Assembly (NCBI RefSeq): GCF_000787835.1
Contig: NZ_BBPP01000009.1
Location: 1 to 64,000, forward strand
Reading direction: 5' to 3'
DNA length: 64,000 nucleotides
From: Streptacidiphilus melanogenes
GTDB lineage: Bacteria; Actinomycetota; Actinomycetes; Streptomycetales; Streptomycetaceae
Made by a program: the position numbers and the translations under genes. The notes under the pieces are model-generated. The model was not told where the DNA came from. It saw only the letters and a list, made by a program, of their open reading frames with translations, and searched no databases. This document shows positions 21,226 to 38,501 of the stretch, piece by piece (the first letter of the stretch is position 1; each line of letters opens with the position of its first letter).

Positions 21226-23363
21226 CCGCCGACCCGCAGGGACCCGCCCCTCCGCCCGATCCGCCGGAAGCAGGAAAGGCCCGGGCGGCACCGGAGGCCG
21301 CGTCTCCCCGGGAGACGGCGCGGGAGTCCGCGCAGACGTTCCCCGAGCGCTGGACCGCCATGCTGCGGCGGCACGGCACCTCGCTGCACCCGACCAAGGT
21401 CACGGCGCTGGGCGCGCGGACCGCCGCGATGATCTGCGAGGGACGGCCGGCCTCGGCTGCGACCACCCTGGTCGGCGCGCACTTCACCGACCCGGACCTG
21501 CTGGTCGAGGCGGTGGGGCTGTTGCGCAGGGCCCCGTCGTCGCAGACGGGCGACCCGGCCGGGGCCTTCGCCGCCGCCTGGGCGATCGCGCTGCGCGAGC
21601 GGACGCTGCGCCAGCAGGAGACCATCCGCACGGCGGCCGACGTCGCCCGTCGCGAGGCCGAGCAGGCGCTGCACGCCTCCGAGGCGCGGTTCCGCGCCCT
21701 GTTCGAGCACGCGGCCGTCGGCATCGGGGTGGGCAGCGTCGAGGGCGAGATCCTGGCCGCCAACCGCTCGCTGCTGGAGATGTTCGGTGCTCGGCTGGAG
21801 GACCTGCGCGGCCGCGCGGTCACCGAACTGGTGCACCCCGAGGACACCCCCGAGATCTGGCAGGCCTACGAGGACCTGATCGGCGGCAAGCGGGAGAGCT
21901 TCCAGTGCGACAAGCCGTACTACCGGCAGGACGGCGAGGTGGTCTGGACGCACCTGACCGTCTCACTGATCCGCGACGAGGACGGCACGCCGCGCTACCA
22001 GGTGGCCATGCTGGAGGACATCACCGACCGCTACCGCCTCCAGGAGCGGCTGCACCACCAGGCCACCCACGACCCGCTGACCGGCCTGCCCAACCGGGCG
22101 GCGTTCTTCGAACGCCTGGAGGAGCTGTTCGCGACGGCCGCGCCGGGGGCGCACTTCGGCCTGTGCTACATCGACCTGGACCGGTTCAAGATCGTCAATG
22201 ACTCGCTGGGCCACGCCACCGGCGACCAGCTGCTCGTCGAGGTCGCCGGACGGCTGGCGACGGCGCTCGGCCCGCTCGGCCACACCGTGGCCCGCCTCGG
22301 CGGCGACGAGTTCGTCGTGTTGCTGGAGCACTGCGACGGCGAGCACGACGCCGTGGCCGCCGCCCGCACGGTGCTGGGCGCGCTGCGCGAGCCGATCCTC
22401 ATCGACGGCCACAAGCTGGCGATCGGCGCCAGCGTCGGCGTGCTGGAACGGCCCGTCGGCACGATCACCCCGGGCGCGGCGGTACGTGCCGCCGACCTGA
22501 CGCTCTACCGGGCCAAGGAGGCGGGCGGCGCCCGCTGGACCCTCTACGACGCCCGCACCAACGCCGAGGCCGTCAGCCGCTACACCGTCTCGGTGCGGAT
22601 GCCGATGGCTTTGGACCGCGGCGAGTTCTTCCTGGAGTACCAGCCGCTGTGCGCGCTCACCGACGGCTCGCTGGCCGCCGTGGAGGCGCTGGTGCGCTGG
22701 CGGCACCCGCTGCTGGGCATCCTGCAGCCGGACGAGTTCGTCCCGGCCGCCGAGGAGACCGGCCTGATCCTGCCGCTCGGCCGGTGGATCCTCAGCCAGG
22801 CCTGCGCCCAGGCGGCGGACTGGCAGCGCCGCTACGGCAGGCTGGCCCCGCAGGTCAACGTCAACATCACCGCGCGTCAGGCGCGGAACAAGGGCCTGGT
22901 CGCCGACATCGGGCGGATCCTGGCCGACACCAACCTCGAACCAGGCCTGCTGCAACTGGAGATCACCGAGAGTACCGCGCTCGGCCCGCGTGACGAGTCG
23001 CTGCGCGTGCTGAACGCCCTGGTGGACAAGGGCATCACGCTGGCCGTCGACGACTTCGGGACCGGCTGGTCCAACCTCGCCTACCTGCGTGACCTTCCGC
23101 TGTCCGGCCTCAAGCTGTCGAGCTCGTTCATCGGCGAGCCGTCCGGCGAGCCGGTGCCGGACTCGGACGTCGCCTGGCGCATCATCGGCGGCCTCGCCGA
23201 CCTGTCCCGCAGCCTGGGACTGACGCTGACGGCGGAGGGTGTGGAGACGCGCGAGACCGCCGAGCGGCTGCGCGCGCTGGGCTGCGACTGGGGGCAGGGC
23301 TGGTACTTCGGCCGTCCGGTCACGCCGGAACAGCTGGAGGAGCTGTTCCTGGCGAATCACTAG
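21222..23363 (+). CDS. PAS-GGDEF-EAL cyclic-di-GMP turnover protein
   Basis: 713 residues. Order: an N-terminal helical region (FPERWTAMLRRHGTSLHPTK), a PAS/PAC domain (about 140-265; LHASEARFRALFEHAAVGIG), GGDEF domain (about 270-430; the site RLGGDEFVVLLEH is intact) and EAL domain (about 450-705; VEALVRWRHP carries EAL, ITEST and DDFGTGWSNL follow). In the EAL domain the segment usually reading LKIDRSF is LKLSSSFI, so one conserved Lys/Asp pair is altered; phosphodiesterase activity is uncertain. There are no membrane segments; it is a cytosolic enzyme that sets c-di-GMP levels, which control Streptomyces development. It is translationally coupled to the upstream methyltransferase. Confidence 0.94.
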   Translation: MTADPQGPAPPPDPPEAGKARAAPEAASPRETARESAQTFPERWTAMLRRHGTSLHPTKVTALGARTAAMICEGRPASAATTLVGAHFTDPDLLVEAVGLLRRAPSSQTGDPAGAFAAAWAIALRERTLRQQETIRTAADVARREAEQALHASEARFRALFEHAAVGIGVGSVEGEILAANRSLLEMFGARLEDLRGRAVTELVHPEDTPEIWQAYEDLIGGKRESFQCDKPYYRQDGEVVWTHLTVSLIRDEDGTPRYQVAMLEDITDRYRLQERLHHQATHDPLTGLPNRAAFFERLEELFATAAPGAHFGLCYIDLDRFKIVNDSLGHATGDQLLVEVAGRLATALGPLGHTVARLGGDEFVVLLEHCDGEHDAVAAARTVLGALREPILIDGHKLAIGASVGVLERPVGTITPGAAVRAADLTLYRAKEAGGARWTLYDARTNAEAVSRYTVSVRMPMALDRGEFFLEYQPLCALTDGSLAAVEALVRWRHPLLGILQPDEFVPAAEETGLILPLGRWILSQACAQAADWQRRYGRLAPQVNVNITARQARNKGLVADIGRILADTNLEPGLLQLEITESTALGPRDESLRVLNALVDKGITLAVDDFGTGWSNLAYLRDLPLSGLKLSSSFIGEPSGEPVPDSDVAWRIIGGLADLSRSLGLTLTAEGVETRETAERLRALGCDWGQGWYFGRPVTPEQLEELFLANH

Positions 23364-23678
23364 AAAAGCCGCAAATTGCATAAAACCCGGTTAAATAACC
23401 TTGACTTCCGGCCTTCGAGCTGACGATGATGTTCCCCTGGCAGTTGTTGGCACGGGTCTTTGACCCGACCGTGATCGACTGCCGACGTGGTGGTCGACGC
23501 TTCACGCGTCCAGATCGACCGGCGGCACGGGGGCGAGGCTCGGGGGCGGGCTTCGGAGCCAGGGCTGGGGCACTCCGCCGATGCGATCGTTCCTGACCTC
23601 GTGCGGGCCGCAGGCCCGCGCAGCGGTGACGCACGCCCTGATGGCGCATGCCCCGCCGCCCTCCGGAGGGCATCTCCG
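23364..23678 (+). promoter_or_regulatory. Upstream region of the polysaccharide operon
   Basis: 315 bases without a convincing gene. The first 40 bases are unusually AT-rich for this genome and contain the inverted repeat GGTTA-AA-TAACC (23390-23401). TTGACT at 23401-23406 and GATGAT at 23425-23430, 18 bases apart, could be a promoter with a long leader. A minus-strand frame crosses the region but has no start or family I can support. Confidence 0.35.
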
Positions 23679-24497
23679 ATGAGTACCGGCAAGCCCCTGA
23701 CCATGCCCCCGATCCCCCGCAGCGCCGCCGACGGAGTGCCCCTGCGCCGTGCGACGGACCGACCGCGGACCCGATCCACCGTCAGCCTGGTCATCCCCGC
23801 CTACAACGAGGCGCGCAACATCCCCTGGGTCTTCCAGGAGATCCCACGCTGCGTGGACGAAGTGCTCCTGATCGACGGCGACTCCCACGACGCGACGGAG
23901 CGGATGGCCCGGCTGTGCCGGCCCGCCACACGCATCCTGCGCCAGGACGCGCCCGGCAAGGGCAGCGCACTGCGCACCGGCTTCCTCGCGGCCCGCTGCG
24001 ACTACGTGGTGATGCTCGACGCCGACGGCAGCATGTGGCCCGGAGAGATCCCGCACTACATCCACTTCCTGGACAACGGCTACGACTTCGTCAAGGGCTC
24101 GCGCTACATCGCGGGCGGCGGTTCCCAGGACCTCACCACGATCCGCTCGTTCGGCAACAAGGTGCTGGTCGCCGCCACCAACCTGCTCTACGACGCCGCA
24201 CTGACCGACCTGTGCTACGGGTTCTGCGCCTTCCGGCGCAGCTTCCTGGACGAACTCGACCTGCATGCGCCCGGGTTCGAGATCGAGACGGAGATGGTGG
24301 CGCACGCACTGCGCTCGGGCCTGCGCGTCGCAGAGGTCCCGAGCCTGGAACTCCCCCGCCGCGCAGGCCGGTCGCACCTGCACGCGCTCTCGGACGGCCG
24401 ACGCGTGCTGCGTACCCTGCTCGCCGAACGACCGAGGACCACCGAAGGCGTTCGACGACCGGTCGGCGCGGCGGCGGGAACGGGGGAAACCCGATGA
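23679..24497 (+). CDS. GT2 glycosyltransferase, dolichyl-phosphate-sugar synthase-like
   Basis: 272 residues from the ATG at 23679; CCGGAGGGCATCTCCG gives the ribosome-binding site. A GT-A fold: STVSLVIPAYNEARNIPWVF near residue 30, EVLLIDGDSHDATERMARLC, then VVMLDADGSMWPGEIPHYIH (DxD) and YGFCAFRRSFLDELDLHAPGFEIETEM, characteristic of the DPM1-like branch that transfers sugar to a polyprenyl phosphate. It has no membrane segment. First gene of a four-gene operon; its stop overlaps the next start as ATGA. The likely role is sugar donation in surface polysaccharide synthesis. Confidence 0.9.
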   Translation: MSTGKPLTMPPIPRSAADGVPLRRATDRPRTRSTVSLVIPAYNEARNIPWVFQEIPRCVDEVLLIDGDSHDATERMARLCRPATRILRQDAPGKGSALRTGFLAARCDYVVMLDADGSMWPGEIPHYIHFLDNGYDFVKGSRYIAGGGSQDLTTIRSFGNKVLVAATNLLYDAALTDLCYGFCAFRRSFLDELDLHAPGFEIETEMVAHALRSGLRVAEVPSLELPRRAGRSHLHALSDGRRVLRTLLAERPRTTEGVRRPVGAAAGTGETR

Positions 24498-25903
24498 GAG
24501 GCCACGACCGGCGCTCCGCAGCAGCCTGTCCCTGCCTTGCCGCACGCTATCTGCGCTACACCCCCGTCCGGGTCGTGGAACTGGAGCTGGACCGGCCGCA
24601 GGAGCTGCGCGCGCCGGGCGGCCTGGGTCCCGTCGTCCCGAGCGGACGCGTGTCGGCGCTGGTGCGACTGCACGGACACCCGCTCGGGCTGGTCCAGGCC
24701 GACGGCGCACCCGGCGATCCGGCCGGGCTCCGCCGGGCGCTGGTCGCCGCCGCCCATCGCGAACTGACCGTCCCTGAACAACGCCGCCCGGAACAACGCC
24801 GCCCGGAGGCCTCCAGGCCCCAGGCGACCGTCAGCGTCGTCGTCGCCACCCACAACAGGCCCGACTCACTGCGCCGCTGCCTGGACTCGCTGCTCCGCAC
24901 GCGCTACCCGGGCCTGGAGGTGCTGGTCGTCGACAACGCGCCCGCCACCGCCGAGGCGCGGGAACTGGTCCTGACGCGGTATCCGCCCCAGGTCCGCTAC
25001 CTGCGCGAGCCCGTCGCCGGGCTGGCCCGCGCGCACAACCGCGGTCTCGCCGCCGCGCACGGCGCGGTGGTGGCGTTCACCGACGACGACACCATGGTCG
25101 ACCCGCGCTGGCCGGTCGCCCTCGCCGACGCCTTCGCGACGGACCGTTCGGTCGGCTGCGTCACCGGTCTGATCCTCCCGGCCGAGCTGGAGACGCCCGC
25201 CCAGGCCGCGCTCGAGGCGCACGGCGGCTACGCCAAGGGCTTCGCGCCGCGCCGCTGGTCGATCGGCGAACCGCCGACGGGCGAGCCCCTCTTCCCGTTC
25301 GCCAGCGGCCGGTTCGGCTCCGGCGCGAACATGGCGTTCCGCACCTCGTTGCTGCGCCGCCTCGGAGGATTCGACCCGGCGACCGGCACCGGCACCCCGG
25401 CCCGCGGCGGCGACGACCTGCTCGCCTTCTTCCGCGTACTGACCTCGGGCGCGTCCCTGGTCTACCAGCCGGACGCGATCGTCTGGCACCACCACCGCCG
25501 CACCCTGGACGCGGTCCCCGCGCAGGCGTTCGGCTACGGGGTCGGCTTCGGCGCCTATCTCGCGGCCGCAGTGCGGCACCAACCGGCAGCGCTGCCAGCG
25601 CTGTTGAGAATCCTGCCGCGCGGCGTCGGGGTGGCCCTGCGGGGCACCGGCCGACGCGCCGCGCCGAGCCCGCCCGTCGCCGGGGCGAGCCCGGCGGAGC
25701 TGGCCCGGCTGCAGCTGCGCGGGCTCGCCTACGGCCCCATCGGCTATCTGCGCAGCGCCCTCCAGGACCGGTACGGCGACAAGTCCGGCTCAGGCCGGGC
25801 CCGGACCGGGAGCCGGAGGCGGGGACGGGACGGCGGGCGTCGGCGCCTGCCGACGACAACGACGAGGACGGTGAGACCAGGTGCGGCCGGCCTGCGGCGC
25901 TGA
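24494..25903 (+). CDS. GT2 glycosyltransferase with N-terminal extension
   Basis: 469 residues from the ATG that overlaps the previous stop. Residues 1-110 form an extra small domain (RYTPVRVVELELDRPQELRA, SGRVSALVRLHGHPLGLVQA) seen in a subset of actinobacterial GT2 proteins. The catalytic domain starts at TVSVVVATHNRPDSLRRCLD; AVVAFTDDDTMVDPRW holds the DxD, and GRFGSGANMAFRTSLLRRLGGFD and GGDDLLAFFRVL follow. The C-terminal end is basic and low-complexity. A direct repeat CCGGAACAACGCCG-type (around 24775-24800, EQRRPEQRRPE) marks the linker. Probably transfers a sugar to a lipid- or protein-linked acceptor. Confidence 0.88.
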   Translation: MRGHDRRSAAACPCLAARYLRYTPVRVVELELDRPQELRAPGGLGPVVPSGRVSALVRLHGHPLGLVQADGAPGDPAGLRRALVAAAHRELTVPEQRRPEQRRPEASRPQATVSVVVATHNRPDSLRRCLDSLLRTRYPGLEVLVVDNAPATAEARELVLTRYPPQVRYLREPVAGLARAHNRGLAAAHGAVVAFTDDDTMVDPRWPVALADAFATDRSVGCVTGLILPAELETPAQAALEAHGGYAKGFAPRRWSIGEPPTGEPLFPFASGRFGSGANMAFRTSLLRRLGGFDPATGTGTPARGGDDLLAFFRVLTSGASLVYQPDAIVWHHHRRTLDAVPAQAFGYGVGFGAYLAAAVRHQPAALPALLRILPRGVGVALRGTGRRAAPSPPVAGASPAELARLQLRGLAYGPIGYLRSALQDRYGDKSGSGRARTGSRRRGRDGGRRRLPTTTTRTVRPGAAGLRR

Positions 25904-27023
25904 CCCGGCAGCCGCGCCCACGCTCTCGGTGGTGATCTGCTGCTACACCACCGACCGCTGGGACGACGTGCGCGCCGCCGTCGCCTCCGTGGCGGCCCAA
26001 CGGCCGCCCGTGCTGGAGACCGTGGTGGTCGTGGACCACTGTCCCGCCCTGGAGCGGCTGGTACGGGAGCAGCTCGCGGACGGGACGCGTGTACGGGCCG
26101 TGGCGAACGCGGAACGCCGCGGCCTGTCCGGCGCGCGCAACACCGGGGTGGCCGAAGCCCACGGGGAGGTGGTGGCCTTCCTGGACGACGACGCCGCGGC
26201 GGAGCCCGGCTGGGCGGCGGCGATCCTGGCGGGCTACGCACGCGGGGCCGGCGTGCTCGGCGTCGGCGGGGCCGTGCTGGCCCGCTGGGAGGGCGAGCGC
26301 CCCCACTGGTTCCCGCCGGAGTTCGACTGGGTGGTCGGCTGCTCCTACCGCGGTGGTCCCGAAACCGCCACGGCCGTGCGGAACTTCATCGGCGCGAACA
26401 TGTCCTTCCGCCGCGCCGCCCTGCAGGCGGCAGGGGGCTTCCGCACCGACCTCGGCCGGGTCGGCACCCGTCCGCTGGGCTGCGAGGAGACCGAGCTGTG
26501 TCTGCGGCTCACCGCCTCGCGCCGCGACGCGGAGCTGCTGCACCGGCCGGACGCCGTCGTCCGCCACCACGTGCCGCCGCAACGCGGGACCTGGCGCTAC
26601 TTCCTGACCCGCTGCTACGGCGAGGGCCTGTCGAAGGCCGCCGTCACCGCCCGCACCGGCGCCTCCCGGGCACTGGCGAGCGAGCGCGCCTACCTGCGCC
26701 GTACCGTGCCGCTCGCCGTCACCGCCGCGCTGCGCCCCGGCCGGCAGTGGGCCCCACGCCGCGCCCTCGCCCTGGGCGCGGGCGTCTCCCTGACCGTCCT
26801 CGGCTACGCCGCGGGAACACTGCACCGGCTGCACCGGCCCGCACCGCCGGCCTCGTGGGTCACTCGCCTTCGGGCGCTCCTGGCCCGACGCGCCCTTGGG
26901 CTCGCGACCGAGCCGCCCGCGACCGCCCCGGCCGAGTCCGGTCTTCCTGTCGGCGTGGTCGCCGTCCCCGTGCTGCTGTCCGCACGGCCGGCCCCGCGTC
27001 GGCGGACAGGTGGTGGGACATGA
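25881..27023 (+). CDS. GT2 glycosyltransferase with C-terminal membrane segment
   Basis: 380 residues from the GTG at 25881, overlapping the previous gene by 23 bases; GTGAGACCAG lies upstream. TLSVVICCYTTDRWDDVRAA begins the GT-A domain; EVVAFLDDDAAAEPGW has the DxD; NFIGANMSFRRAALQAAGGF and CEETELCLRL complete it. A hydrophobic helix near residue 300 (RRALALGAGVSLTVLGYAAG) could tether it to the membrane. Third gene of the polysaccharide operon. Two consecutive related transferases suggest a repeating unit with at least two linkages. Confidence 0.88.
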   Translation: MRPACGADPAAAPTLSVVICCYTTDRWDDVRAAVASVAAQRPPVLETVVVVDHCPALERLVREQLADGTRVRAVANAERRGLSGARNTGVAEAHGEVVAFLDDDAAAEPGWAAAILAGYARGAGVLGVGGAVLARWEGERPHWFPPEFDWVVGCSYRGGPETATAVRNFIGANMSFRRAALQAAGGFRTDLGRVGTRPLGCEETELCLRLTASRRDAELLHRPDAVVRHHVPPQRGTWRYFLTRCYGEGLSKAAVTARTGASRALASERAYLRRTVPLAVTAALRPGRQWAPRRALALGAGVSLTVLGYAAGTLHRLHRPAPPASWVTRLRALLARRALGLATEPPATAPAESGLPVGVVAVPVLLSARPAPRRRTGGGT

Positions 27024-27820
27024 CCCCCGTGCCGGTGCTGCTCTACCACTCCGTCAGCGACTCGCCGGCGGAGTGGATCGCGCCGTTCACCGTCTCCCCC
27101 GCCGCGTTCACCGAGCAGCTGGACCGGATCGCGGACGCGGGCCTGACCGTCGTCTCGCTGCGCCGTCTGGTCTCGGCGATCCGTGGCGGCCCGGCGCTGC
27201 CCGCGCGACCTGCGGTGCTGACCTTCGACGACGGCTTCGCGGACTTCTACTGGACCGTCGCCCCGCAGCTCCAGTCGCGGGAACTGCCCGCAAGCCTGTT
27301 CGTCACGACCGGGGCCGTCCACCCGCCCGGCGGCTCCCCGTCCGGCAGCCTGCTGGGCCCGGCCGACATGCTGAACTGGCGCCAGATCGCCGGCCTGGAC
27401 GCGGTCGGCATCGAGATCGGCGGCCACTCGGTCACCCACCCCCAGATGGACACCCTCACCAGCCGCGCGCTCTGTGAGGAGCTGCAGGTGTGCAAACAGG
27501 AGCTGGAGGAGGCCCTCGGCCACTCCGTCAGCAGCTTCGCCTACCCCCACGGCTACTCGAGCCCGGCGGTGCGTCGCAAGGTGCTGCGGGCCGGCTTCGA
27601 CTGCGCGTGCGGGGTGGCCAACGCGTTCAGCTCGACCTCGGACGACACGCTGCGGCTGGCCCGACTGACCGTCCGCGCGGACACGACCGCCGCGACGTTC
27701 CAGGGCTGGCTCGAAGGCCGGGGCGCGCCGACCGCCCCCTTCCCGGACCGCTGGTCCACCGTCGGCTGGCGCGCCTACCGCCGTCTGCGCGCCCGACTCG
27801 GCCTGCCCGTACCGTGCTGA
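27020..27820 (+). CDS. Polysaccharide deacetylase (CE4)
   Basis: 266 residues, ATG overlapping the previous stop (ATGA). NodB-homology motifs: VLTFDDGFADFYWTVAPQLQ (motif 1, two Asp), IGGHSVTHPQMDTLT (motif 2, HxxxH metal ligands) and FAYPHGYSSPAVRRKVLRAG (motif 3). The enzyme removes N- or O-acetyl groups from a polysaccharide with a divalent metal. There is no signal peptide, so it acts in the cytosol or on a lipid-linked precursor. Last gene of the operon, coupled to the glycosyltransferases, so it probably modifies the product they make. Confidence 0.92.
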   Translation: MTPVPVLLYHSVSDSPAEWIAPFTVSPAAFTEQLDRIADAGLTVVSLRRLVSAIRGGPALPARPAVLTFDDGFADFYWTVAPQLQSRELPASLFVTTGAVHPPGGSPSGSLLGPADMLNWRQIAGLDAVGIEIGGHSVTHPQMDTLTSRALCEELQVCKQELEEALGHSVSSFAYPHGYSSPAVRRKVLRAGFDCACGVANAFSSTSDDTLRLARLTVRADTTAATFQGWLEGRGAPTAPFPDRWSTVGWRAYRRLRARLGLPVPC

Positions 27821-29598: not shown

Positions 29599-30510
29599 CT
29601 AGTGCTGCCAGACCTTCACCCACTGCACCTGCATGTCGGCCTGGTTGACGTTCGCCGGTGGGGCGTACGGGTAGCCGACGGCCAGGTTGAGGATCACTTC
29701 CATGGGCAGGGTGGGGATCTCCGCGGGGTCGGCGATCCGCCAGCGGGCGACGCCGTCGACGTACCAGGTGACGGACTTCGGCTCCCAGTCGACCCCGAAG
29801 ACGTGGAACCCGGCCGGGAAGTTCACCGGGCCGAACCAGTTCTGACGCTGGGCGGCGCCGCCGTCGGACTTCTGCCAGTGGAGGGTGTTCTGCACCGCCT
29901 GGGTGGTGCCGCTGAACTCGGCGATGTCGATCTCCTGCGGGACGTTGTGCTCCGCGGGGAGCAGCCAGAACGCGGGGAACATGCCCGCCTGGGGCGGGAT
30001 GCGGATGGACGCGGCGAAGTAGCCGTGCAGGAAGGTCTCGCGGGGCTGCGCGTTCCAGCTGTCGCGGCCGGTGGTGACCATGCCCGAGGTCCAGGGGTAG
30101 GTCTTGCCGTCGCTGCCCTGCGTGGGCGTGCGCTTGGCCTCCAGGTTGAGTGTGCCGTCGGCGACGGAGACCTGGCCGGGCTGGTACCACTCGAGTTCGC
30201 GGTTGCCCGCGTTGGTGCAGCCGGAGTCGTTCCAGTCGTAGCAGGTGGCCCAGTGGGCGGTGTCGAGGGAGTCGCCGCCGAAGTCGTCGGAGAAGACGAG
30301 GTTCCAGGAGCCTGAGGCCGCAGGGGTGCTGCCGGTGTTGCTCGCGGAGCTCCCCGAGGTTCCGGGCGGCGCTCCCACCACGGAGCCGCCGGACTCACCG
30401 CTCCCGGCTGCCCCGGCTGCCCCGCTGCCGGGAGAGGTGCCGCCGCAGGCCGCAGTCAGGCCCAGCAGCAGGCAGGCTGTCGCGGCCCAGAGCCGGCGGC
30501 CAACGGGCAT
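29599..30510 (-). CDS. GH16 family endo-beta-glucanase-like lipoprotein
   Basis: 303 residues from the ATG at 30510, with a very strong AGGAGGTGGGTCCG. The N-terminus RRLWAATACLLLGLTAAC has a lipobox (LTAAC), followed by a Gly/Ser-rich linker. The GH16 domain has FSDDFGGDSLDTAHW, GNRELEWYQPGQVSVADGTL and the catalytic QEIDIAEFSG (ExDxxE, nucleophile and acid/base Glu both present), then FHVFGVDWEPKSVTWYVDGV. The closest activities are endo-1,3- or 1,3-1,4-beta-glucanase. It is anchored outside the cell membrane and degrades beta-glucan for nutrition or defence. Confidence 0.93.
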   Translation of the reverse strand: MPVGRRLWAATACLLLGLTAACGGTSPGSGAAGAAGSGESGGSVVGAPPGTSGSSASNTGSTPAASGSWNLVFSDDFGGDSLDTAHWATCYDWNDSGCTNAGNRELEWYQPGQVSVADGTLNLEAKRTPTQGSDGKTYPWTSGMVTTGRDSWNAQPRETFLHGYFAASIRIPPQAGMFPAFWLLPAEHNVPQEIDIAEFSGTTQAVQNTLHWQKSDGGAAQRQNWFGPVNFPAGFHVFGVDWEPKSVTWYVDGVARWRIADPAEIPTLPMEVILNLAVGYPYAPPANVNQADMQVQWVKVWQH

Positions 30511-30684
30511 CGGACCCACCTCCTCAGCCGGCCACGGAGCGGGGGGCCACCGCGTCGGCGTGTCCGTGAACCAGTGTGGATCGGGGGGCGACCGGTGCGG
30601 CATCCCCCGGCCGGGCGACAGTGCTGCCGGGCAGTTCGCAGGTCCGCCTGCGTGCCCCGGGCGCCGTCACCGGCCCTTGACCGC

Positions 30685-33588
30685 TCATCGGACCACGCTC
30701 CCCGCCCGCCCGTGCCGGTCCCGCCCGTGCCTCATCGGGCCGTGCCTCATCGGGCCGTGAGTCTCCGGAACATGCCGGTCCAGACCGTGCGCCTCCAGGC
30801 TGTGCGCGGCCGTCAGGTCGGCGTTCTCCAGCGCCAGCCGGGCGAGCCGCCGCAGGGCGCCGCGTCGGCCCGCCTCCGGCAGGGCCAGGACCGCGAGCAC
30901 GGCTCGCGTCTCGTGCGGCAGCGAGGGCGGACGGCAGATGTGGCAGTGCCCCGGACGGTGGCCGAGGAGCGCGGCGACGGCGTCGGCCAGGCCGGCCTGG
31001 TAGGCGCCGGGGGCGACGTGGATGCCGGGCTCGGCCCACTTCCGTGCCTGCGCGGGCACCACGCCGTTGCGCGACCAGCGCAGCAGCGGCAGGTCGGCCG
31101 GACCTCCGCCGACCGCGAGCACCGGCGGCTCCGCGGGCTCGCCCATCAGCGCGAGCAGCGCTCGCACGCCCTCCGCTGTGTCCGCGCCGCGGGGCACGAA
31201 GTCGGTCTGCTCGGCGCCGGGCACGACGTCGAAGAGGCGAGCGAACCGACGCCCCCTCAGCAGCTCGGCGGTCTCGGCCTCGGGCAGCCCGGTGCGCCGC
31301 CCGTCCGCGCGGCGGACCGAGGCGCGCACGCACCAGTGCGACAGCGGGTCGGTCTCGTGGCCCGGTCGGGAGGCGAGCAGGACGGCCAGCCCGGCGTCGC
31401 CCTCGCCGCGCCGCGCGTCGTCGAGGACCACGCGGACGCGCCCGCTGCCCGCGTCGACGCAGGCCGCGCCGTACTCCCCCACGCCGCCCGCCATTCCGTA
31501 GGCCGCACAGCGGTCGCCCACCTCGGCGAGGGAACGGCCCGTAGCCGGCAGCGCCCGGAAGCCGTGGGCGCGCAGGGCTCGCAGGGCCATGACCCCGAGC
31601 GGGGAGGCGGCGGGAAAGCCGAGGACGTCGGTCTCCAGCACGCCGTCGACGTCGAACACGCACCACCCGCGTGGCTCGGCCGGAGCCCGCCGGTCGAGGT
31701 CGGCCAGCAGGGCGCCCGCGAGGAACCGCTGCGCGGCTCTGGCCTGCGCCCTTCGCGCCCGGGCCCGCAGCATCGGGCCGTCGGCTGCGCCCGCCCCGGC
31801 CGTGAGCCGGACCGTGTTGCGGGCCTGGACCAGCTGGAACAGGAACCAGGATGCCGGGTCGACGCGACGGCCGGTCAGCAGGGTGAAGTGGCGCAGCAGT
31901 TCCCGTTCGGCCTCGTCGTCCGGCGGGCCGTGGGCGACCGCGCCGGCCAGGTCGTAGACGGCGTCGTAGCAGGCCAGGTCGAGGTCGGCGAAGCCGCCCT
32001 CCGCCCAGTCCAGCTTGCGACCGGCGCCGTCGCGGTCCGCCGCCCAGTGCTCGGGGGCGGTGCGGCCGTCGACGAGGCACGGCTGCCGCGCGGACGCGAG
32101 CAGATGCCGCGTCAACGGCTGGACGAGCGCGGGCCGCAGCAGCACGGCGGCCCGGCCGAGCGCGGGGGCGAGCGTCCGCGCGGCGGACTCCCAGACGGGG
32201 TCGCGCCCGCCGAGCCGCCCGCTGCGGTCCTCGGGCAGCGGGAGCCTGCGCTCGCGCTCCGCCAGGTAGACGGCCAGCTCGCGCGGTTCGACGGGCTGCT
32301 GCTGACCGCCTGCGGGACCGGACAGACCGGGCGGACCGGCCGGACCGCCTGCCGGGCGGTCGCGGAGCAGCACGCCGTCGGCGAAGCCGTACACGCGCGG
32401 GACGAGCCCGTCGAGGGCCGCTGCCGTGGCCGGGGCGAGCCGTCCGAACCGGCCGACGCCGGTCCATTCGGCGCACAGGGCGAGCTCTTCGCGCACGCCG
32501 TCGCGGTGTTCGACGACGGCGTCGACGGGGACGCAGAGGTGTCGGGTGCGCGCGACCGGCCCGGGCGCAACAGCCCGCACGTCGAGCACCCGCACGCCCG
32601 TCAGCAGCCGCGGCAGCAGCGCCGCGAGCACGCGCGGCGCGAGCAGGGTCGGCACGTGCCAGGCGGATCCCGGCAGCATCACGCAGTCGTGGCGGGCCAG
32701 CCGCTCCGGGACGACGGCCGGGTCGGCGAAGCAGGCGAAGACGGGGACGATCGCGGCCGCCGGAACCCCCACGCGCTGCAGCGCGGCCGCTGCTTCGGCG
32801 AGCGCGCCGCCGGTGACCGGCGGCTCGTCCACCAGCAGCACGCGCGCGGCCGACGATGCGCCGGGAGGCGGCGGGAAGCCGGGCCGGGTCGTGGCCACGG
32901 CGACACGGCGGTACCCCAAACCGCGCAGGGCCGCTGCCAGCAGCGGCGCGAGGTAGCTGCCGGAGGTGCGGACGCCGAGCACCAGCATCGGCGGCTCCCG
33001 GGCGGGGTAGACCCGGGCGAAGCGGCGGGCCAGCTCGGCGATGTCGTTCGGGTGCTGGTCGAAGCTGCGGAAGCAGGCGGGCGGGCGCAGCAGATCCCGC
33101 CCGACGAGCCGCGCGGCGGGACCTGGCCCGGCCAGGACGCGTCCGGCGGTGACGGCTCCGGCGTCGTGTCCCAGGGCCAGGCCCGCGAGCGTCAGTGTCA
33201 GCCGCGTCGCCTCCCGGGCCCAGGCGCGCAGCGAGCGGGTCGGCGGGGCCGCCCGGTATCCCGCGCCGACGGCGTCGAGCGCGCGGGAGGCGAGGCGCAG
33301 CGCGGGACGCACCCCGGGACCTTCGGCCCCGTGTTGGGTCAGGTGGACGAGCAGACGGCGCGTCGGCCAGCTGACCCCGTCGATCCGGTCCTCGACGATC
33401 TGCGACGCCCCAGCCGACCACAGGAACGCGTCCAGCCACGCGTCCGCGGCGAGCGCCGCGCACAGACCACCCAGCGCCTCGTCCAGCGTCGCAAACGGGT
33501 CCGGCACCAAGGCGCCCGTCTGCCCGAACGAGGCCGGGGCCCCGGCCGCGCCCGTCGGGCTCGCCTCGCTCCTGGTCGGGCTCATCAT
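30685..33588 (-). CDS. Multidomain PRTase / kinase-like / HAD phosphatase fusion
   Basis: 967 residues. Visible order: an N-terminal helical region (1-195); a type-I phosphoribosyltransferase-like domain (about 196-300) with MLVLGVRTSGSYLAPLLAAA and RVLLVDEPPVTGGALAEAAA, where the usual acidic DD-TGGT site reads DEPPVTGGA; a middle region (about 395-600) with CLVDGRTAPEHW and RKLDWAEGGFADLDLACYDA, resembling the end of an aminoglycoside-phosphotransferase/kinase fold; and a HAD domain (about 640-880) with the nucleophile motif CVFDVDGVLET, PATGRSLAEVGDRCAAYGMA and VGGGPADLPLL. A CHIC motif at 881-884 and a His/Arg-rich repeat tail (GPMRHGPMRHG) end the protein. It resembles the PRTase and HAD enzymes of tellurite-type (Ter) nucleoside biosynthesis operons, but as one fused polypeptide. 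Domain calls are from motifs only. Confidence 0.7.
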   Translation of the reverse strand: MMSPTRSEASPTGAAGAPASFGQTGALVPDPFATLDEALGGLCAALAADAWLDAFLWSAGASQIVEDRIDGVSWPTRRLLVHLTQHGAEGPGVRPALRLASRALDAVGAGYRAAPPTRSLRAWAREATRLTLTLAGLALGHDAGAVTAGRVLAGPGPAARLVGRDLLRPPACFRSFDQHPNDIAELARRFARVYPAREPPMLVLGVRTSGSYLAPLLAAALRGLGYRRVAVATTRPGFPPPPGASSAARVLLVDEPPVTGGALAEAAAALQRVGVPAAAIVPVFACFADPAVVPERLARHDCVMLPGSAWHVPTLLAPRVLAALLPRLLTGVRVLDVRAVAPGPVARTRHLCVPVDAVVEHRDGVREELALCAEWTGVGRFGRLAPATAAALDGLVPRVYGFADGVLLRDRPAGGPAGPPGLSGPAGGQQQPVEPRELAVYLAERERRLPLPEDRSGRLGGRDPVWESAARTLAPALGRAAVLLRPALVQPLTRHLLASARQPCLVDGRTAPEHWAADRDGAGRKLDWAEGGFADLDLACYDAVYDLAGAVAHGPPDDEAERELLRHFTLLTGRRVDPASWFLFQLVQARNTVRLTAGAGAADGPMLRARARRAQARAAQRFLAGALLADLDRRAPAEPRGWCVFDVDGVLETDVLGFPAASPLGVMALRALRAHGFRALPATGRSLAEVGDRCAAYGMAGGVGEYGAACVDAGSGRVRVVLDDARRGEGDAGLAVLLASRPGHETDPLSHWCVRASVRRADGRRTGLPEAETAELLRGRRFARLFDVVPGAEQTDFVPRGADTAEGVRALLALMGEPAEPPVLAVGGGPADLPLLRWSRNGVVPAQARKWAEPGIHVAPGAYQAGLADAVAALLGHRPGHCHICRPPSLPHETRAVLAVLALPEAGRRGALRRLARLALENADLTAAHSLEAHGLDRHVPETHGPMRHGPMRHGRDRHGRAGSVVR
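30726..30755 (-). repeat. 15-bp tandem duplication in the 3' end of the fusion gene
   Basis: CGTGCCTCATCGGGC occurs twice in tandem (30726-30740 and 30741-30755), and a further partial copy follows. It keeps the frame and encodes the repeated GPMRH pentapeptide at the C-terminus. Confidence 0.85.
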
Positions 33589-33776
33589 CGGGCTCCCGGG
33601 AAGCCGGTCGGTACGGGGGCGTCCTCCTCCGTAGGCACTCTTCGTTCAAGGGTGCACCCCGTGACAACGCCGGGCGAGTCGAACCGGTTCACGCCGACGG
33701 CCGTCCGACCGCCGCCGACCGCCGCGTGCGGACGGCGGTCGGCGGCCGGGCTGGGCGAGTTCAGCGACGCGACGGG

Positions 33777-34796
33777 TCAGCGACGCGTGACGGCCGGGAT
33801 CACCCCCTGCCCGTAGGCGTCGATCACGTCGTCCACTGCGTCGTGCATGGCGTAGACGGCGAACTGGTGGACGCCCAGCGCGCGCAGCCGCTCCAGCTTG
33901 GCGACGTGCTGCTCGGCGGTGCCGATCAGGCAGAACCGGTCGACGATCTCGTCCGGGACGAACGTCGTGTCCGGGTTCCCGGCGCGGCCGTGGTGGGAGT
34001 AGTCGTAGCCGTGGCGCTCCTTGATGTAGGCCGTCAGCTCGTCCGGGACCATGCCCGAGTGCTCGCCGTAGCGGGCGACCAGGTCGGCGACGTGGTTGCC
34101 GACCATGCCACCGAACCATCGGCACTGCTCGCGCGCGTGGGCGAGCTGTTCCGCGCTGCCGTCGGTGACGTAAGCGGGCGCGGCGACACAGATGGTCACC
34201 GTGTCCGGGTCGCGGCCCGCCTCCTCGGCGGCCCGGCGGACGGCCTTGACCATCCACTCCGTCAGGAACTCGTCGGCGAGCTGGAGGATGAAGCCGTCGG
34301 CCTGGCGGCCGGTCAGCTCCAGCGCCTTGGGGCCGTAGGCGCCCATCCAGATCGGGAGCTGCGCCCCCTCCCCCACCCAGGGGATGCGGATCATCGTCCC
34401 GTCGAGTTCGGCCTCCCTCCCCTCGGCGAGCTCCTTGATGACGTGCATGGCGTGCCCGAGCCGCTCCAGCGAGGCGGGCTTGCGGCCCGCGACCCGCTGT
34501 GCGGAGTCGCCGCGGCCGATGCCGCAGACGGTGCGGTTGCCGAACATGTCGTTCAGCGTCGCGAACAGGGAGGCGGTGACCTCCCAGGTGCGGGTGACGG
34601 GGTTGGTGACCATCGGGCCGACCGTCAGCCGCTCCGTGGCCGCGAGGATCTGGCTGTAGATCACGAACGGTTCCTGCCACAGCACGCAGGAGTCGAAGGT
34701 CCAGCCGTGGGTGAACCCGGCCGCCTCCGCGCGCTTCATCCGCTCGACGAGCAGACGGGCCGGGGGGTCGGTCTGGAGCACGAGGCCGATGTCCAT
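33777..34796 (-). CDS. LLM-class F420-dependent oxidoreductase of a pyrimidine operon
   Basis: 339 residues from the ATG at 34796, with AAAGGCCCCGC upstream. A luciferase-like (alpha/beta)8 barrel: MDIGLVLQTDPPARLLVERM, AGFTHGWTFDSCVLWQEPFV, VTNPVTRTWEVTASLFATLN, CGIGRGDSAQR and IPIWMGAYGPKALELTGRQA-type segments (LPIWMGAYGPKAL). The sequence belongs to the F420-dependent branch repeatedly found with hydantoinase/dihydropyrimidinase genes. Last gene of the operon, 61 bases after the dihydropyrimidinase. It may reduce or oxidise a pyrimidine or dihydropyrimidine substrate with F420; that role is inferred from context. Confidence 0.9.
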   Translation of the reverse strand: MDIGLVLQTDPPARLLVERMKRAEAAGFTHGWTFDSCVLWQEPFVIYSQILAATERLTVGPMVTNPVTRTWEVTASLFATLNDMFGNRTVCGIGRGDSAQRVAGRKPASLERLGHAMHVIKELAEGREAELDGTMIRIPWVGEGAQLPIWMGAYGPKALELTGRQADGFILQLADEFLTEWMVKAVRRAAEEAGRDPDTVTICVAAPAYVTDGSAEQLAHAREQCRWFGGMVGNHVADLVARYGEHSGMVPDELTAYIKERHGYDYSHHGRAGNPDTTFVPDEIVDRFCLIGTAEQHVAKLERLRALGVHQFAVYAMHDAVDDVIDAYGQGVIPAVTRR

Positions 34797-34857
34797 GCGG
34801 GGCCTTTCAGTGGTGCGGTGCGGGGGGTGGTGCACGGGATTGCGTGCAGGGCCGCGC

Positions 34858-36264
34858 TCAGTTCAGATACGCGCAGGTGGCGCGCGGCACGAAGGTGCCG
34901 TGGCCGGCGTGGCCGAGGTACTCGCCGCCGTCGACGACCACAGCACCGCGCGACAGGACCGTCCGGGCGCGGCCGGTGACCTGGCGACCCTCGTACGCGG
35001 AGTAGTCGACGTTCATGTGGTGGGTCGCCGCCGACATGGTGTAGCGGTCGTGCGGGTCGAAGACCACGATGTCCGCGTCCGCGCCGGGCGCGATGGTGCC
35101 CTTGCGCGGGTAGAGGCCGAACATCCGGGCGGGCGTGGCGCAGGCCAGCTCGATCCAGCGACGGCGCGAGATGTGCCCGTCCAGGTGGGCCTGGTGCAGC
35201 AGGTCCATCCGGTTCTCCACGCCCGGCAGTCCGTTGGGGATCTTCGAGAAGTCCCCGCGGCCGAGGTCCTTCTGGCCGACGAAGCAGAACGGACAGTGGT
35301 CGGTGGAGACCACGGACAGGTCGTTGGTCCGCAGCCCGCGCCAGAGTGCGGCCTGGTGTTCCCTGGGCCGCAGCGGCGTGGAGCACACGTACTTGGCGCC
35401 CTCGAAGTCCGGCTCGGCCAGGTTGTCCGTGGACAGGAACAGGTACTGCGGGCAGGTCTCACCGAAGACGTTCAGCCCCAGGTCGCGGGCCTGCGCGAGC
35501 TCGGCGACGGCCTGCTCGGCGGAGACGTGGACGACGTACAGCGGGGATCCGGCCACCCGGGCGAGCTGGATCGCCCGGTGCGTCGCCTCGGCCTCCAGCA
35601 GCTCGCGCCGCACCTCGCCGTGGTAGCGCGGGTCGGTGTGCCGGGCGGCGAGGGCCTGCTCGACCAGGACGTCGATGGCGATGCCGTTCTCCGCGTGCAT
35701 CATGATCAGCCCGCCGTTGCCGGCGGAGCGCTGCATGGCGCGCAGGATGCGGCCGTCGTCGCTGTAGAAGACGCCGGGGTAGGCCATGAACAGCTTGAAG
35801 CTGGTCACGCCCTCCTCGACAAGGAGGTCCATCTCCTTCAGCGACTGCTCGGTGACATCCGACATGATCATGTGGAAGCCGTAGTCGATCGCACAGTTGC
35901 CCTGCGCCTTCGCGTGCCAGGCGTCCAGGCCCTCGCGCAGGCTGTGGCCGACGCTCTGCACGGCGAAGTCCACGATCGTGGTCGTGCCGCCGAAGGCGGC
36001 CGCCCGGGTGCCGGTCTCGAAGGTGTCGGAGGCGAAGGTGCCGCCGAAGGGCAGCTCCATGTGCGTGTGCGCGTCCACCCCACCGGGGATCACGTAGCAG
36101 TCGGTGGCGTCGATCGTCCGGTCCGCCCGCCAGGCCTGGGCCTCCGGACTCCCCGTCGCCGCGAGGGCGACCACGCGCTCTCCGTCGATCAGCACGTCGG
36201 CGTGGAGCTCGTCGGCGGCGGTGATCACCAACCCGTTGCGGATGACGGTCCGTCCGTGCGTCAC
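34858..36264 (-). CDS. hydA: Dihydropyrimidinase (D-hydantoinase)
   Basis: 468 residues from the GTG at 36264, whose last bases are the stop of the aminotransferase gene (GTGA overlap). VIPGGVDAHTHMELPFGGTF supplies the first HxH metal ligands; SFKLFMAYPGVF contains the carbamylated Lys; MMHAENG, YVVHVSAEQA and VSTDHCPFCFVGQKDLGRGD give the remaining ligands and the catalytic Asp. The enzyme hydrolyses dihydrouracil or dihydrothymine to N-carbamoyl-beta-amino acids in the cytosol. It sits directly with beta-ureidopropionase and an aminotransferase, so the pathway assignment is strong. Confidence 0.95.
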   Translation of the reverse strand: MTHGRTVIRNGLVITAADELHADVLIDGERVVALAATGSPEAQAWRADRTIDATDCYVIPGGVDAHTHMELPFGGTFASDTFETGTRAAAFGGTTTIVDFAVQSVGHSLREGLDAWHAKAQGNCAIDYGFHMIMSDVTEQSLKEMDLLVEEGVTSFKLFMAYPGVFYSDDGRILRAMQRSAGNGGLIMMHAENGIAIDVLVEQALAARHTDPRYHGEVRRELLEAEATHRAIQLARVAGSPLYVVHVSAEQAVAELAQARDLGLNVFGETCPQYLFLSTDNLAEPDFEGAKYVCSTPLRPREHQAALWRGLRTNDLSVVSTDHCPFCFVGQKDLGRGDFSKIPNGLPGVENRMDLLHQAHLDGHISRRRWIELACATPARMFGLYPRKGTIAPGADADIVVFDPHDRYTMSAATHHMNVDYSAYEGRQVTGRARTVLSRGAVVVDGGEYLGHAGHGTFVPRATCAYLN

Positions 36265-37613
36265 AGTGCCTCCTCGATCGCCCACAGCTCCTTCTGCGCC
36301 CGGTCGAGCGCCTGCACCAGCAGCTCCGCGCCCTGCTCGGCCTCGTCGACGGTCAGCGACATCGGCGGCGCGATGCGCAGGGCGTTGCCGAGCGGGCCGC
36401 CCTTGCCGATGAGCAGACCCAGGTCGCGGGCGTGTTCGAGCGCCATCGCCGCGGCGGCCGCGCTGGGCTCGCCCGCGCGGTCCACCAGTTCGACGCCGAG
36501 CATCAGACCGCGCCCGCGCACCTCGCGGACGACCGGCAGATGCCGCGCCCCGGCCTCGAGCCGCTCGCGCAGCACCGCGCCGACGCGCCGGGCGTTGCCC
36601 TGCAGGTCGTGTTCCAGCAGGTGCCGCAGGTTGGCCAGCGCCCCGGCCGTGGTGACGGGGCTGCCGCCGAAGGTGGAGATGGAGTTCGCGCCGAGGGAGT
36701 CCATCAGCTCGGCGCGGGCCACGACGCCGCCGATGGACAGGCCGTTGCCGAGGCCCTTGGCGAAGGTCAGCGCGTCCGGCGGCCCGGCCTCCGCGTGGGC
36801 CTGCCAGCCCCAGAAGTGGTCGCCCGTGCGGCCCCAGCCGGTCTGCACCTCGTCGCTGATCCACAGGATGCCGTGCCGGTCCAGCACCCGCTTGAACGCG
36901 GCGAACAGCCCGTCCGGTCCGTGGGTGAACCCGCCGACGCCCTGGATCGGCTCGGCGATCAGCGCGGCGACGGGGCCGCCGACCTGGCCGAGCATGTCCT
37001 CCAGGTCGGCGGTGCAGGCCTCGACGAACGCGGCGTCGTCCAGGTGCGCGAACGGCCCGCGCGTGCGGATCGAACCGTGCACGTAGAGAGTCTGCAACGG
37101 CGAGAAGCTGGTCGGCGACCAGGAGCTGTTGCCGGTGATGCCGATGGTGGAGAAGGAACGCCCGTGGTAGCTGTTGCGCATCGCCAGCACCTGGTTGGAG
37201 CGCCGGTAGCCGGTGGCGAGCAGCAGCGCCGCGTCGTTGGCCTCGGTCCCGGAGGTGGTGAAGAAGACCTTGGCGTCCGGGATGCCGGAGAGCTCGGCGA
37301 TCTGCTCGGCGAGCTCGACCATGGGCGAGGAGAGGTAGAGCGTCGAGGTGTGCAGGATCCGCCCGGCCTGGTCGGCGACGGCCTTGGTCACCTCGGGCAG
37401 CGCGTGAGCCGTCATCGTGGTGAGGATGCCGCCGAAGAAGTCCAGGTAGCGGCGGCCGTCGGAGCCGTACACGTGCCGGCCCTCGCCGTGCGTCAGCTCC
37501 AGCGGCTCGCGGTAGTACAGCGCCAGCCAGGACGGGGTGACCGCCCGGTGCCGGTCGAGCAGGCTCTTGGCCTCGTGGGCGGTGTCGTCGGTCGTGTCGT
37601 CGGTCATCACCAC
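36261..37613 (-). CDS. Class III PLP-dependent aminotransferase (beta-alanine/beta-aminoisobutyrate type)
   Basis: 450 residues. Fold type I motifs: VFFTTSGTEANDAALLLATG, NSYHGRSFSTIGITGN, LIAEPIQGVGGF, WISDEVQTGWGRTGDHFWGW and ALTFAKGLGNGLSIGGVVAR, where the Lys of FAKG binds PLP. It converts beta-alanine or 3-aminoisobutyrate plus an oxo-acid to the semialdehyde, in line with its position between beta-ureidopropionase and dihydropyrimidinase. The start is a GTG at 37613 with GGAGG five bases upstream; an ATG at 37607 is an alternative. The upstream gene's stop is immediately adjacent. Confidence 0.93.
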   Translation of the reverse strand: MVMTDDTTDDTAHEAKSLLDRHRAVTPSWLALYYREPLELTHGEGRHVYGSDGRRYLDFFGGILTTMTAHALPEVTKAVADQAGRILHTSTLYLSSPMVELAEQIAELSGIPDAKVFFTTSGTEANDAALLLATGYRRSNQVLAMRNSYHGRSFSTIGITGNSSWSPTSFSPLQTLYVHGSIRTRGPFAHLDDAAFVEACTADLEDMLGQVGGPVAALIAEPIQGVGGFTHGPDGLFAAFKRVLDRHGILWISDEVQTGWGRTGDHFWGWQAHAEAGPPDALTFAKGLGNGLSIGGVVARAELMDSLGANSISTFGGSPVTTAGALANLRHLLEHDLQGNARRVGAVLRERLEAGARHLPVVREVRGRGLMLGVELVDRAGEPSAAAAAMALEHARDLGLLIGKGGPLGNALRIAPPMSLTVDEAEQGAELLVQALDRAQKELWAIEEAL

Positions 37614-38501
37614 TCAGGCCTCCGTCAGCGGGCCGTAGGCGTCGGGGCGGCGGTCGCGGTAGAAGGCCCACTGGTTGCGGACCTGCTCGATCAGTCCGAA
37701 GTCGAGGTCCCGGACCACGAGCTCCTCCTCCTTGTCGGAGGCGACCTCACCGACGAACTGGCCGCGCGGGTCCACGAAGTAGCTGGTCCCGTAGAAGTCG
37801 TCGTCGCCGTACTCCTCCACCCCGACGCGGTTGATCGCGGCAATGAAGTACTCGTTGGCCACGGCCGCGGCCGGCTGCTCCAGCTGCCACAGGTACGCGG
37901 AGAGCCCGCGGCTGGTGGCGGACGGGTTGTAGACGATCTCGGCCCCGGCGAGGCCGAGCGCGCGCCAGCCCTCGGGGAAGTGGCGGTCGTAGCAGATGTA
38001 CACCCCGACCCGGCCGACGGCCGTGTCGAACACCGGCCAGCCGAGGTTGCCGGGGCGGAAGTAGTACTTCTCCCAGAACCCGTGGACCTGCGGGATGTGG
38101 TGCTTGCGGTACTTACCGAGGTAGCTGCCGTCGGCGTCGATCACGGCGGCGGTGTTGTAGTAGAAGCCCGACTGCTCCACCTCGTACACGGGCACGACCA
38201 TCACCATGTTCAGCTCGCGCGCGAGCTCGCGCATCCGCGTCACGGTGGGCCCGTCCGGCACGGGTTCCGCCCACCGGTAGTGCTCGGGTTCCTGCACCTG
38301 GCAGAAGTAGGGGGCGTTGAACACCTCCTGAAACCCGATCACCTGCGCACCCTGTGCGGCCGCGTCCCGCGCGTACCGCTCGTGCACTTCGATCATGGAC
38401 TCGGTATCCCCGGTCCACTTCGCCTGCACGAGTGCCGCGCGCACCACGCGCGGCACTCCCTGCATGGACCCTTGCATCGACCTGCTGACGGATTCCGACA
38501 T
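37614..38501 (-). CDS. Beta-ureidopropionase (nitrilase superfamily)
   Basis: 295 residues. The catalytic triad Glu-Lys-Cys is visible in VIGFQEVFNAPYF (Glu), GKYRKHHIPQVHGFWEKYYF (Lys) and GVYICYDRHFPEGWRALGLA (Cys). The length and EKYYFRPGNLGWPVFDT segment match N-carbamoyl-beta-alanine amidohydrolases. It releases NH3 and CO2 from N-carbamoyl-beta-alanine to give beta-alanine. First gene of the operon; the aminotransferase follows directly. The upstream 174 bases to 38675 should hold its promoter. Confidence 0.94.
   Translation of the reverse strand: MSESVSRSMQGSMQGVPRVVRAALVQAKWTGDTESMIEVHERYARDAAAQGAQVIGFQEVFNAPYFCQVQEPEHYRWAEPVPDGPTVTRMRELARELNMVMVVPVYEVEQSGFYYNTAAVIDADGSYLGKYRKHHIPQVHGFWEKYYFRPGNLGWPVFDTAVGRVGVYICYDRHFPEGWRALGLAGAEIVYNPSATSRGLSAYLWQLEQPAAAVANEYFIAAINRVGVEEYGDDDFYGTSYFVDPRGQFVGEVASDKEEELVVRDLDFGLIEQVRNQWAFYRDRRPDAYGPLTEA

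Follow-up and report, generated by a model that had tools for sequence, protein, structure and literature searches.

A fused phosphoribosyltransferase, kinase-fold and HAD protein of an actinomycete glycan locus as a candidate ribosylation module

What might a protein do that carries a phosphoribosyltransferase (PRTase)-like, a kinase-like and a HAD domain in a single chain? The question is raised by a gene in a 64,000-nt stretch of DNA from Streptacidiphilus melanogenes (contig NZ_BBPP01000009.1, positions 1–64,000; hereafter the window), whose product an earlier note, made from the sequence alone, likened to a one-protein version of the nucleoside-like pathway of tellurite-resistance (Ter) operons. 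We instead read the intact members of this family, with middling confidence, as a module for ribosylation dependent on phosphoribosyl pyrophosphate (PRPP) within a surface-glycan assembly locus. The reading is drawn by analogy: in the cited passages of the source papers, pairs of a PRPP transferase and a HAD phosphatase make ribofuranosyl glycans (PMC10299916, PMC12096443, PMC11127046), and one such pair is accompanied by a flippase and a GT-C enzyme (PMC11127046).

One gene, several predicted folds

The minus-strand frame encodes a single protein of 967 residues that contains every motif quoted in the earlier note: VDEPPVTGG (residues 253–261), DGRTAPEHW (507–515), KLDWAEGGF (525–533), DVDGVLET (646–653) and CHIC (882–885). 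An antiparallel plus-strand open reading frame (ORF) is longer (30574–33816, 1080 residues) and was rejected as the true gene; it is the minus-strand frame that has coding-type composition, with GC fractions of 0.83/0.59/0.92 by codon position. This composition, together with the presence of the same fused protein in other genomes, indicates that the gene is not a chance ORF.

The fusion recurs. Among 100 genomes searched, 10, its own included, encode it as one protein (longest match of at least about 520 residues), although in one genome the match is interrupted by an internal TGA (G002:C84, locus L006); in 7 further genomes the match is limited to the N-terminal/PRTase half. A scan of contigs from named records, which relied on two peptide patterns and can miss relatives, found the fused protein in 17 loci, several of them from the same genomes as in the 100-genome search. 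Their hosts are Streptacidiphilus (S. neutrinimicus, locus L038; S. anmyonensis; S. fuscans), Kitasatospora, Streptomyces, Actinospica, Pseudonocardia and metagenome-assembled genomes (MAGs) labelled Blastococcus, Nocardiopsaceae, Acidimicrobiaceae or unplaced Actinomycetota. The G002 gene looks broken, and so does the fused gene L052:8384-10953, which is read in two frames. A sample of 394 genomes of the class, for each of which two candidates were scored, gave 30 with a match at 1e-10; outside the gene's own genome, every listed match fell within the HAD domain (from profile position 637 onwards). Judged from these sequences, the fused family looks rare in the class. A plasmid search with the fused protein gave no match, and none of 26 pattern matches in viral contigs was a relative.

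From N to C terminus, a helical part is followed by the PRTase, kinase-like and HAD domains (Table 1). Pfam, profiles and structure models agree with the three domain calls that had been made by eye, except that the kinase-like part is the middle of the protein and not an end. AlphaFold2, given 15 aligned members, returned a model with a predicted local distance difference test score (pLDDT) of 81.1 and a predicted template modelling score of 0.85. Against Pfam (E up to 0.1), Hydrolase_3 was found in 14 of the 15 members, the window copy being the one missed, and Pribosyltran (PF00156) in 8 of 15, at best with E 1.1e-5. The window copy alone barely scores, with nothing at E 0.1 and PF00156 at E 0.28.

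The fold comparison of the whole model returned a list filled by HAD matches, and the PRTase assignment comes from sequence profiles. Profile A9 of this part weakly matched PDB chains of 1wd5, an uncharacterised PRTase-like protein (E 0.0015), and of a hypoxanthine PRTase (E 0.0028); PyrR, a regulatory PRTase, was also among the weak matches. Type I PRTases have a PRPP loop with Asp-Asp before Thr/Ser-Gly, and the pattern DDPPx[TS]G is found in all 13 other aligned rows that cover the loop, the window copy reading DE.

For the HAD domain, the best structural matches are IIB phosphatases (1wr8: Z 21.4, root-mean-square deviation (rmsd) 2.8, 220 residues aligned), and six or more strands are modelled between motifs II and III. 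HAD enzymes of subclass IIB share motifs I (DxD), II (T/S), III (K) and IV (GDxxxD); all four are found in the other rows covering those columns, with the Lys of motif III in 14/14 and the Asp of motif IV in 13/13.

When residues 328–637 were modelled alone (pLDDT 82.9), the middle domain matched APH/choline kinases (Foldseek E 1.2e-6; 3csv, Z 15.0, rmsd 4.1, 250 residues aligned), and in the model its overall fold is that of this family. It differs from these kinases in its catalytic residues. The HG before Asp507 and the Asn five residues on are unconserved, so that HGDxxxxN is reduced to one invariant Asp (15 of 15 members), and the DFG-type Asp is present in 11 of 15; Lys525, near the DFG-type position, is invariant (15 of 15). 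This register was inferred from spacing in an alignment of APH neighbours. The domain was rejected as a detectable sequence relative of the APH kinases encoded beside it, hhalign giving a probability of 0.1%, and the kinase call therefore rests on the model.

Table 1. Positions in the window of the fused gene, its domains, the deletion scars and neighbouring glycan genes
Feature	Position	Strand	Basis or remark
Fused protein gene	30685..33588	-	ATG start, 967 aa: helical N-terminal part, PRTase, kinase-fold, HAD, C-terminal CxxC and helices
Helical N-terminal part, residues 30-162	33103..33501	-	AlphaFold2 model
PRTase-like alpha/beta domain, residues 163-332	32593..33102	-	Profile A9 against PDB; Pfam PF00156
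PRPP-loop motif VDEPPVTGG, residues 253-261	32806..32832	-	Family pattern DDPPx[TS]G
APH/choline-kinase-fold domain, degenerate catalytic residues, residues 333-636	31681..32592	-	Model and residue census
HAD subclass IIB (Cof-like) domain, residues 637-878	30955..31680	-	Fold match 1wr8; here Thr replaces the motif III Lys and Gly the motif IV Asp
C-terminal part with CxxC, residues 879-935	30784..30954	-	Family pattern GHRPGxCPxC
Deletion scar	30644..30713	.	blastn synteny: about 2.8 kb of L038 missing (APH kinase and most of second membrane protein gene)
Deletion scar	33703..33774	.	blastn synteny: about 3.8 kb of L038 missing (flippase relative and two GNAT/FemAB-type genes)
Second membrane protein gene remnant	30530..30649	-	Last 40 aa of L038:13995-15785; tblastn 52.5% identity, E 1.5e-4
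GH16 glycoside hydrolase	29599..30381	-	PF00722 E 4.1e-22 on longer ORF 29599-30603; shorter start by codon model
GT2 glycosyltransferase	23679..24497	+	PF00535 E 9.6e-21 on longer ORF 23487-24497
GT2 glycosyltransferase, MftF-like below cut-off	24575..25903	+	TIGR03965 E 1e-30, 107 bits against cut-off 280
GT2 glycosyltransferase	25929..27023	+	PF00535 E 2e-20 on longer ORF 25881-27023
Polysaccharide deacetylase family	27020..27820	+	BLAST cluster with PF01522-matching proteins; itself a marker HMM seed

A glycan locus and a proposed ribosylation step

The fused gene keeps the company of glycan genes. Hidden Markov models (HMMs) for ten marker families were run at E 1e-8 on six-frame ORFs of 18 of the 22 fused loci, the omitted ones being L044 (another strain of K. 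phosalacinea), L048 (indistinguishable from L047 in match range and identity) and the short loci L006 and L009; among the 18 are four loci from Streptacidiphilus and a number of short contigs (L041, L053, L054). GT2 glycosyltransferases were found in 15 loci, APH kinases, a flippase relative and the deacetylase in 14 each, and a second membrane protein and GH16 in 11 each. Across 20 control stretches of 20 kb, drawn from 3 genomes, each of these markers was absent except GT2 (1/20), and the epimerase marker also scored 1/20; the models were seeded from these same loci, and the controls show background, not independent discovery. The flippase relative has a homologue in Deinococcus aetherius (HMM E 3e-41) that is annotated 'oligosaccharide flippase family protein' and adjoins GT2s and a homologue of the second membrane protein. 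Flippase and kinase can also occur in one chain: L046 encodes a 757-residue protein with a flippase-like part and an APH domain at 475–685, a 744-residue protein of L052 resembles it by sequence, and L047 has a 797-residue neighbour with APH at 518–706.

The same neighbours surround half-size PRTase paralogues (L025, L027–L031 and L026:17428-19020), which cover approximately residues 31–428 of the fused protein. In the six of 12 PRTase-half places that were counted, the flippase relative, second membrane protein, GT2 and deacetylase were each present in 6/6 and APH in 0/6. L026 holds both gene types, the half-size gene lying about 5 kb from an intact fused gene.

By analogy with known pairs of PRPP transferase and HAD phosphatase, the PRTase would transfer ribose-5-phosphate from PRPP onto a glycan or its lipid carrier, and the HAD domain would then remove the 5′-phosphate, with the degenerate kinase-fold domain perhaps holding or presenting the acceptor. 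The flippase relative encoded nearby would then carry the product across the membrane, and the second membrane protein would pass it on outside. What the data show is the conserved fusion, the predicted folds, the glycan neighbourhood, and the losses and deletions in the window copy; in this scheme we infer that PRPP is used, in which order the reactions run, what the acceptor is, what the kinase-fold domain does and that the product goes to the surface.

The closest known dual-domain ribofuranosyltransferases are gPRT-PRP (Klebsiella O-antigen, Thermobacillus composti), CriT-CrpP (Bcs3, Haemophilus influenzae type b) and Cj1432 (Campylobacter jejuni), which, in the passages cited, also join a PRPP-using transferase to a HAD phosphatase in glycan assembly (PMC10299916, PMC12096443, PMC11231755). 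The fused protein shares this architecture and, by its neighbours, this context. It differs from them in the additional kinase-fold domain between PRTase and HAD. As far as the cited text on CriT goes, that enzyme has its two acids in different loops, whereas the fused family has the canonical adjacent Asp pair of a PRPP loop. The PRP domain of ORF15 is modelled with an alpha-helical cap, in a statement perhaps not meant for every PRP (PMC11127046), whereas the fused HAD is IIB-like with strands modelled in its cap. Because the cap differs, no sequence link was found and the acids are arranged unlike those of CriT, we do not file the fused protein with these enzymes. We tentatively suggest, as a possibility we would bet against at present, a new class of glycan ribosyltransferase that arose independently of gPRT/CriT. 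It would unite in a single chain a PRTase of nucleotide-metabolism type, a pseudokinase that holds the acceptor and a IIB HAD phosphatase, and would have joined a glycan locus with a backbone that recurs in Actinomycetota, rhizobia and Deinococcus. A literature search, mainly of open-access papers, recognised no description of a PRTase–kinase–HAD glycan enzyme, and one on Streptacidiphilus glycans returned nothing useful. If the proposal is right, a classical PRTase would make an O-glycosidic ribose in a glycan, as another structural solution to PRPP-dependent glycan ribosylation; the fused gene would be a marker for ribose-containing polymers in actinomycetes; and the degenerate kinase domain would allow the idea of a pseudokinase that serves glycan assembly to be tested.

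Several observations weigh against a ribosylation module. First, two profile searches of the PDB (E up to 1; 51 and 57 rows) listed no chain named as a known ribofuranosyltransferase. Second, neither the flippase relative nor the second membrane protein has a convincing Pfam match, NCBIfam was equally fruitless, and no PDB chain matched (E up to 0.01 and 1), so that 'flippase' goes back to one annotation and 'GT-C-like' to appearance. Third, some fused loci lack the context: L050 has only the flippase of the ten marker families, L041 only APH and L053 none, the latter two being short or ending near the fused gene. Fourth, all seven half-size paralogues that were aligned, of the 12 places found, have lost both PRPP-loop Asp residues, so that non-catalytic roles exist in the wider family. 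Fifth, much of the backbone of the locus also exists without any fused-protein domain (E 1e-3), on records of Rhizobium, Shinella, Sinorhizobium, Ensifer, Deinococcus, Pseudonocardia and Nonomuraea, in which deacetylase, GNAT and GH16 are not all present each time. The fused protein therefore seems to be an accessory addition to a glycan locus of wide distribution.

Four of these backbone loci lie on rhizobial plasmids (L105, L107, L108, L109) and one on a Deinococcus plasmid (L106), so that GT2s and the two membrane proteins occur together across phyla. The rhizobial plasmid loci also carry GNAT, GH16, deacetylase and APH, with the membrane protein genes of L105 in pieces. APH was rejected as a feature exclusive to the fused type of locus; it shares a frame with the flippase in the rhizobial L107–L109, which lack the fused protein.

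Competing explanations

The best-surviving rival, which we consider unlikely, makes a lipid carrier the acceptor, as a soluble-enzyme analogue of three-component pentofuranose systems: the PRTase would form polyprenyl-phosphate ribose-5-phosphate, the HAD polyprenyl-phosphate ribose, the flippase would export it, and the second membrane protein would transfer ribose outside. The genes correspond to the three components described for such a system, a synthase plus HAD, a MATE flippase and a GT-C enzyme (PMC11127046); there, Citrobacter youngae ORF15/ORF13/ORF12 likewise combine a PRPP transferase and HAD with a flippase and one more membrane protein. In a sister locus, the second membrane protein (L028:3144-6077) has an N-terminal GT2 domain at residues 34–197 and hydrophobic segments. 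However, the known lipid phosphoribosyltransferase, that of C. youngae, is in the same passages a membrane-embedded protein of UbiA type, whereas the fused protein is predicted to be soluble, with one hydrophobic segment in a simple scan; moreover, the second membrane protein matches no GT-C model.

We regard it as improbable that the fused protein acts not on the glycan but in the synthesis or salvage of a precursor for the locus, a phosphorylated sugar or nucleotide. IIB HADs do include sugar phosphatases, small molecules are the usual substrates of PRTases, and an APH kinase is encoded nearby. A weak counterpoint is that an NAD-dependent epimerase, the sole nucleotide-sugar-type marker among the ten and the only kind of precursor gene searched for, occurs in 3 of the 18 fused loci (L046, L047, L052).

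It is similarly doubtful, and in our view a poor prospect, that the protein is mainly a scaffold or regulator, with PRTase and kinase-like domains that bind ligands without catalysis and the HAD alone active in most members. The missing APH HG and Asn positions and the incomplete DFG-type Asp of the kinase-fold domain would suit such a role, as would the lost Asp pair of the half-size paralogues and the weak profile match to the regulatory PyrR. By contrast, the fused members other than the window copy retain the PRPP-loop Asp pair and HAD motifs III and IV wherever these columns are covered, as counted above.

Finally, the Ter pathway, which the earlier note had favoured, finds no link in the protein or in the neighbours scanned. 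Nucleoside-like biosynthesis associated with Ter genes is a prediction of Anantharaman 2012, as PMC8115787 cites it in the passage concerned. None of the 15 fused members matched a Ter model or PRTase_2 (PF15609) in Pfam at E up to 0.1. The Ter-associated module, reportedly composed with PRTase_2/TRSP, resembles the fused protein in its PRTase and HAD enzyme types and differs in PRTase family and neighbourhood. The note's remark that no other Ter genes lie nearby is correct, no Ter family having turned up among the neighbouring proteins scanned (the genome-wide search covered TerD and PRTase_2 but not TerB, TerC, PELOTA or the Ter ATP-grasp). TerD in the gene's own genome is on contigs C74, C107 and C101, not C99, and PRTase_2 is absent from that genome. 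TerD was found in 6 of 15 genomes carrying the fused gene (their TerD contig numbers were not matched to the fused gene's contig) and went undetected in 9, mostly MAGs, with Pseudonocardia asaccharolytica and Actinospica durhamensis not so labelled. PRTase_2 scored above the cut-off in 4 of the 15, each time on a TerD contig, about 2 kb or less from TerD and away from the fused gene. With homologues for which neighbourhood and genome searches gave no Ter or nucleoside link, an outcome that the earlier note itself had named as refuting, and with glycan genes as neighbours, a one-protein Ter pathway has next to nothing beyond the shared enzyme types in its favour and we discount it; successive PRPP-linked steps in one protein stay plausible.

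State of the copy in the window and its surroundings

The earlier note held that the fusion, with altered PRTase acids and a CHIC motif, would be a new version. We rejected a new catalytic version because these changes are peculiar to the window copy: the other rows that cover these columns have the Asp pair in 13/13 and Pro or Ala in place of the His within CxxC in 13/13. They stand beside lost HAD catalytic residues and the deletion of several partner genes, and several lines of evidence suggest that the copy is probably an eroding remnant.

First, D255E, K804T (the motif III Lys) and D828G (the motif IV Asp) affect positions at which the 12 homologues compared show no variation. When a member is scored at the columns on which the remaining 12 agree, the window copy differs in 6 of 86, three of them these catalytic positions, and three relatives from the genus in 0 of 80 each (one-sided Fisher p 0.018 for the window against one relative, a rough value since the column sets overlap). 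For the nine more distant members the number of such differences ranges from 1 to 15, and the count for the window is therefore unusual only among near kin. This leave-one-out alignment had 13 rows, with L052 and L054 dropped and L026 and L032 not in it; L053 had been dropped at an earlier stage.

Second, with L040 as outgroup, the window copy has 32 lineage-specific replacements, L038 has 19 and L039 has 14, with relative-rate p for the window of 0.07 and 0.008.

Third, synteny with L038 places deletions on both sides of the gene, and a 40-residue remnant of the second membrane protein sits directly downstream of it (Table 1). Elsewhere in the genome there are only diverged copies of the two membrane proteins, with best identities of 58% and 45%; a search of the genome with the L038 APH gave no match and had no positive control.

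Against erosion, or at least marking it as partial, the frame has no stop codon, and the ratio of nonsynonymous to synonymous substitution rates against L038 is 0.315, similar to the 0.31 between two relatives. The window offers a view of a multi-domain enzyme seemingly early in decay, with its partner genes deleted.

A second locus of the same genome (L063, C99 195–214 kb) contains a flippase relative, a second membrane protein, GT2, GH16 and an ATP-grasp gene, and no PRTase-domain match was found in it. In the outer part of the PRTase-half loci, families F7, F8 and F12 look cobalamin-like by eye and were treated as unrelated. Within the window, a PAS-GGDEF-EAL protein gene (21360–23363) lies beside the glycan genes and has relatives in L038–L040 (cluster F10). 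Genes for a luciferase-like monooxygenase, an amidohydrolase, a class-III aminotransferase and a carbon-nitrogen hydrolase occupy 33777–38465 and are kept beside the locus in L038 and, in part, in L039.

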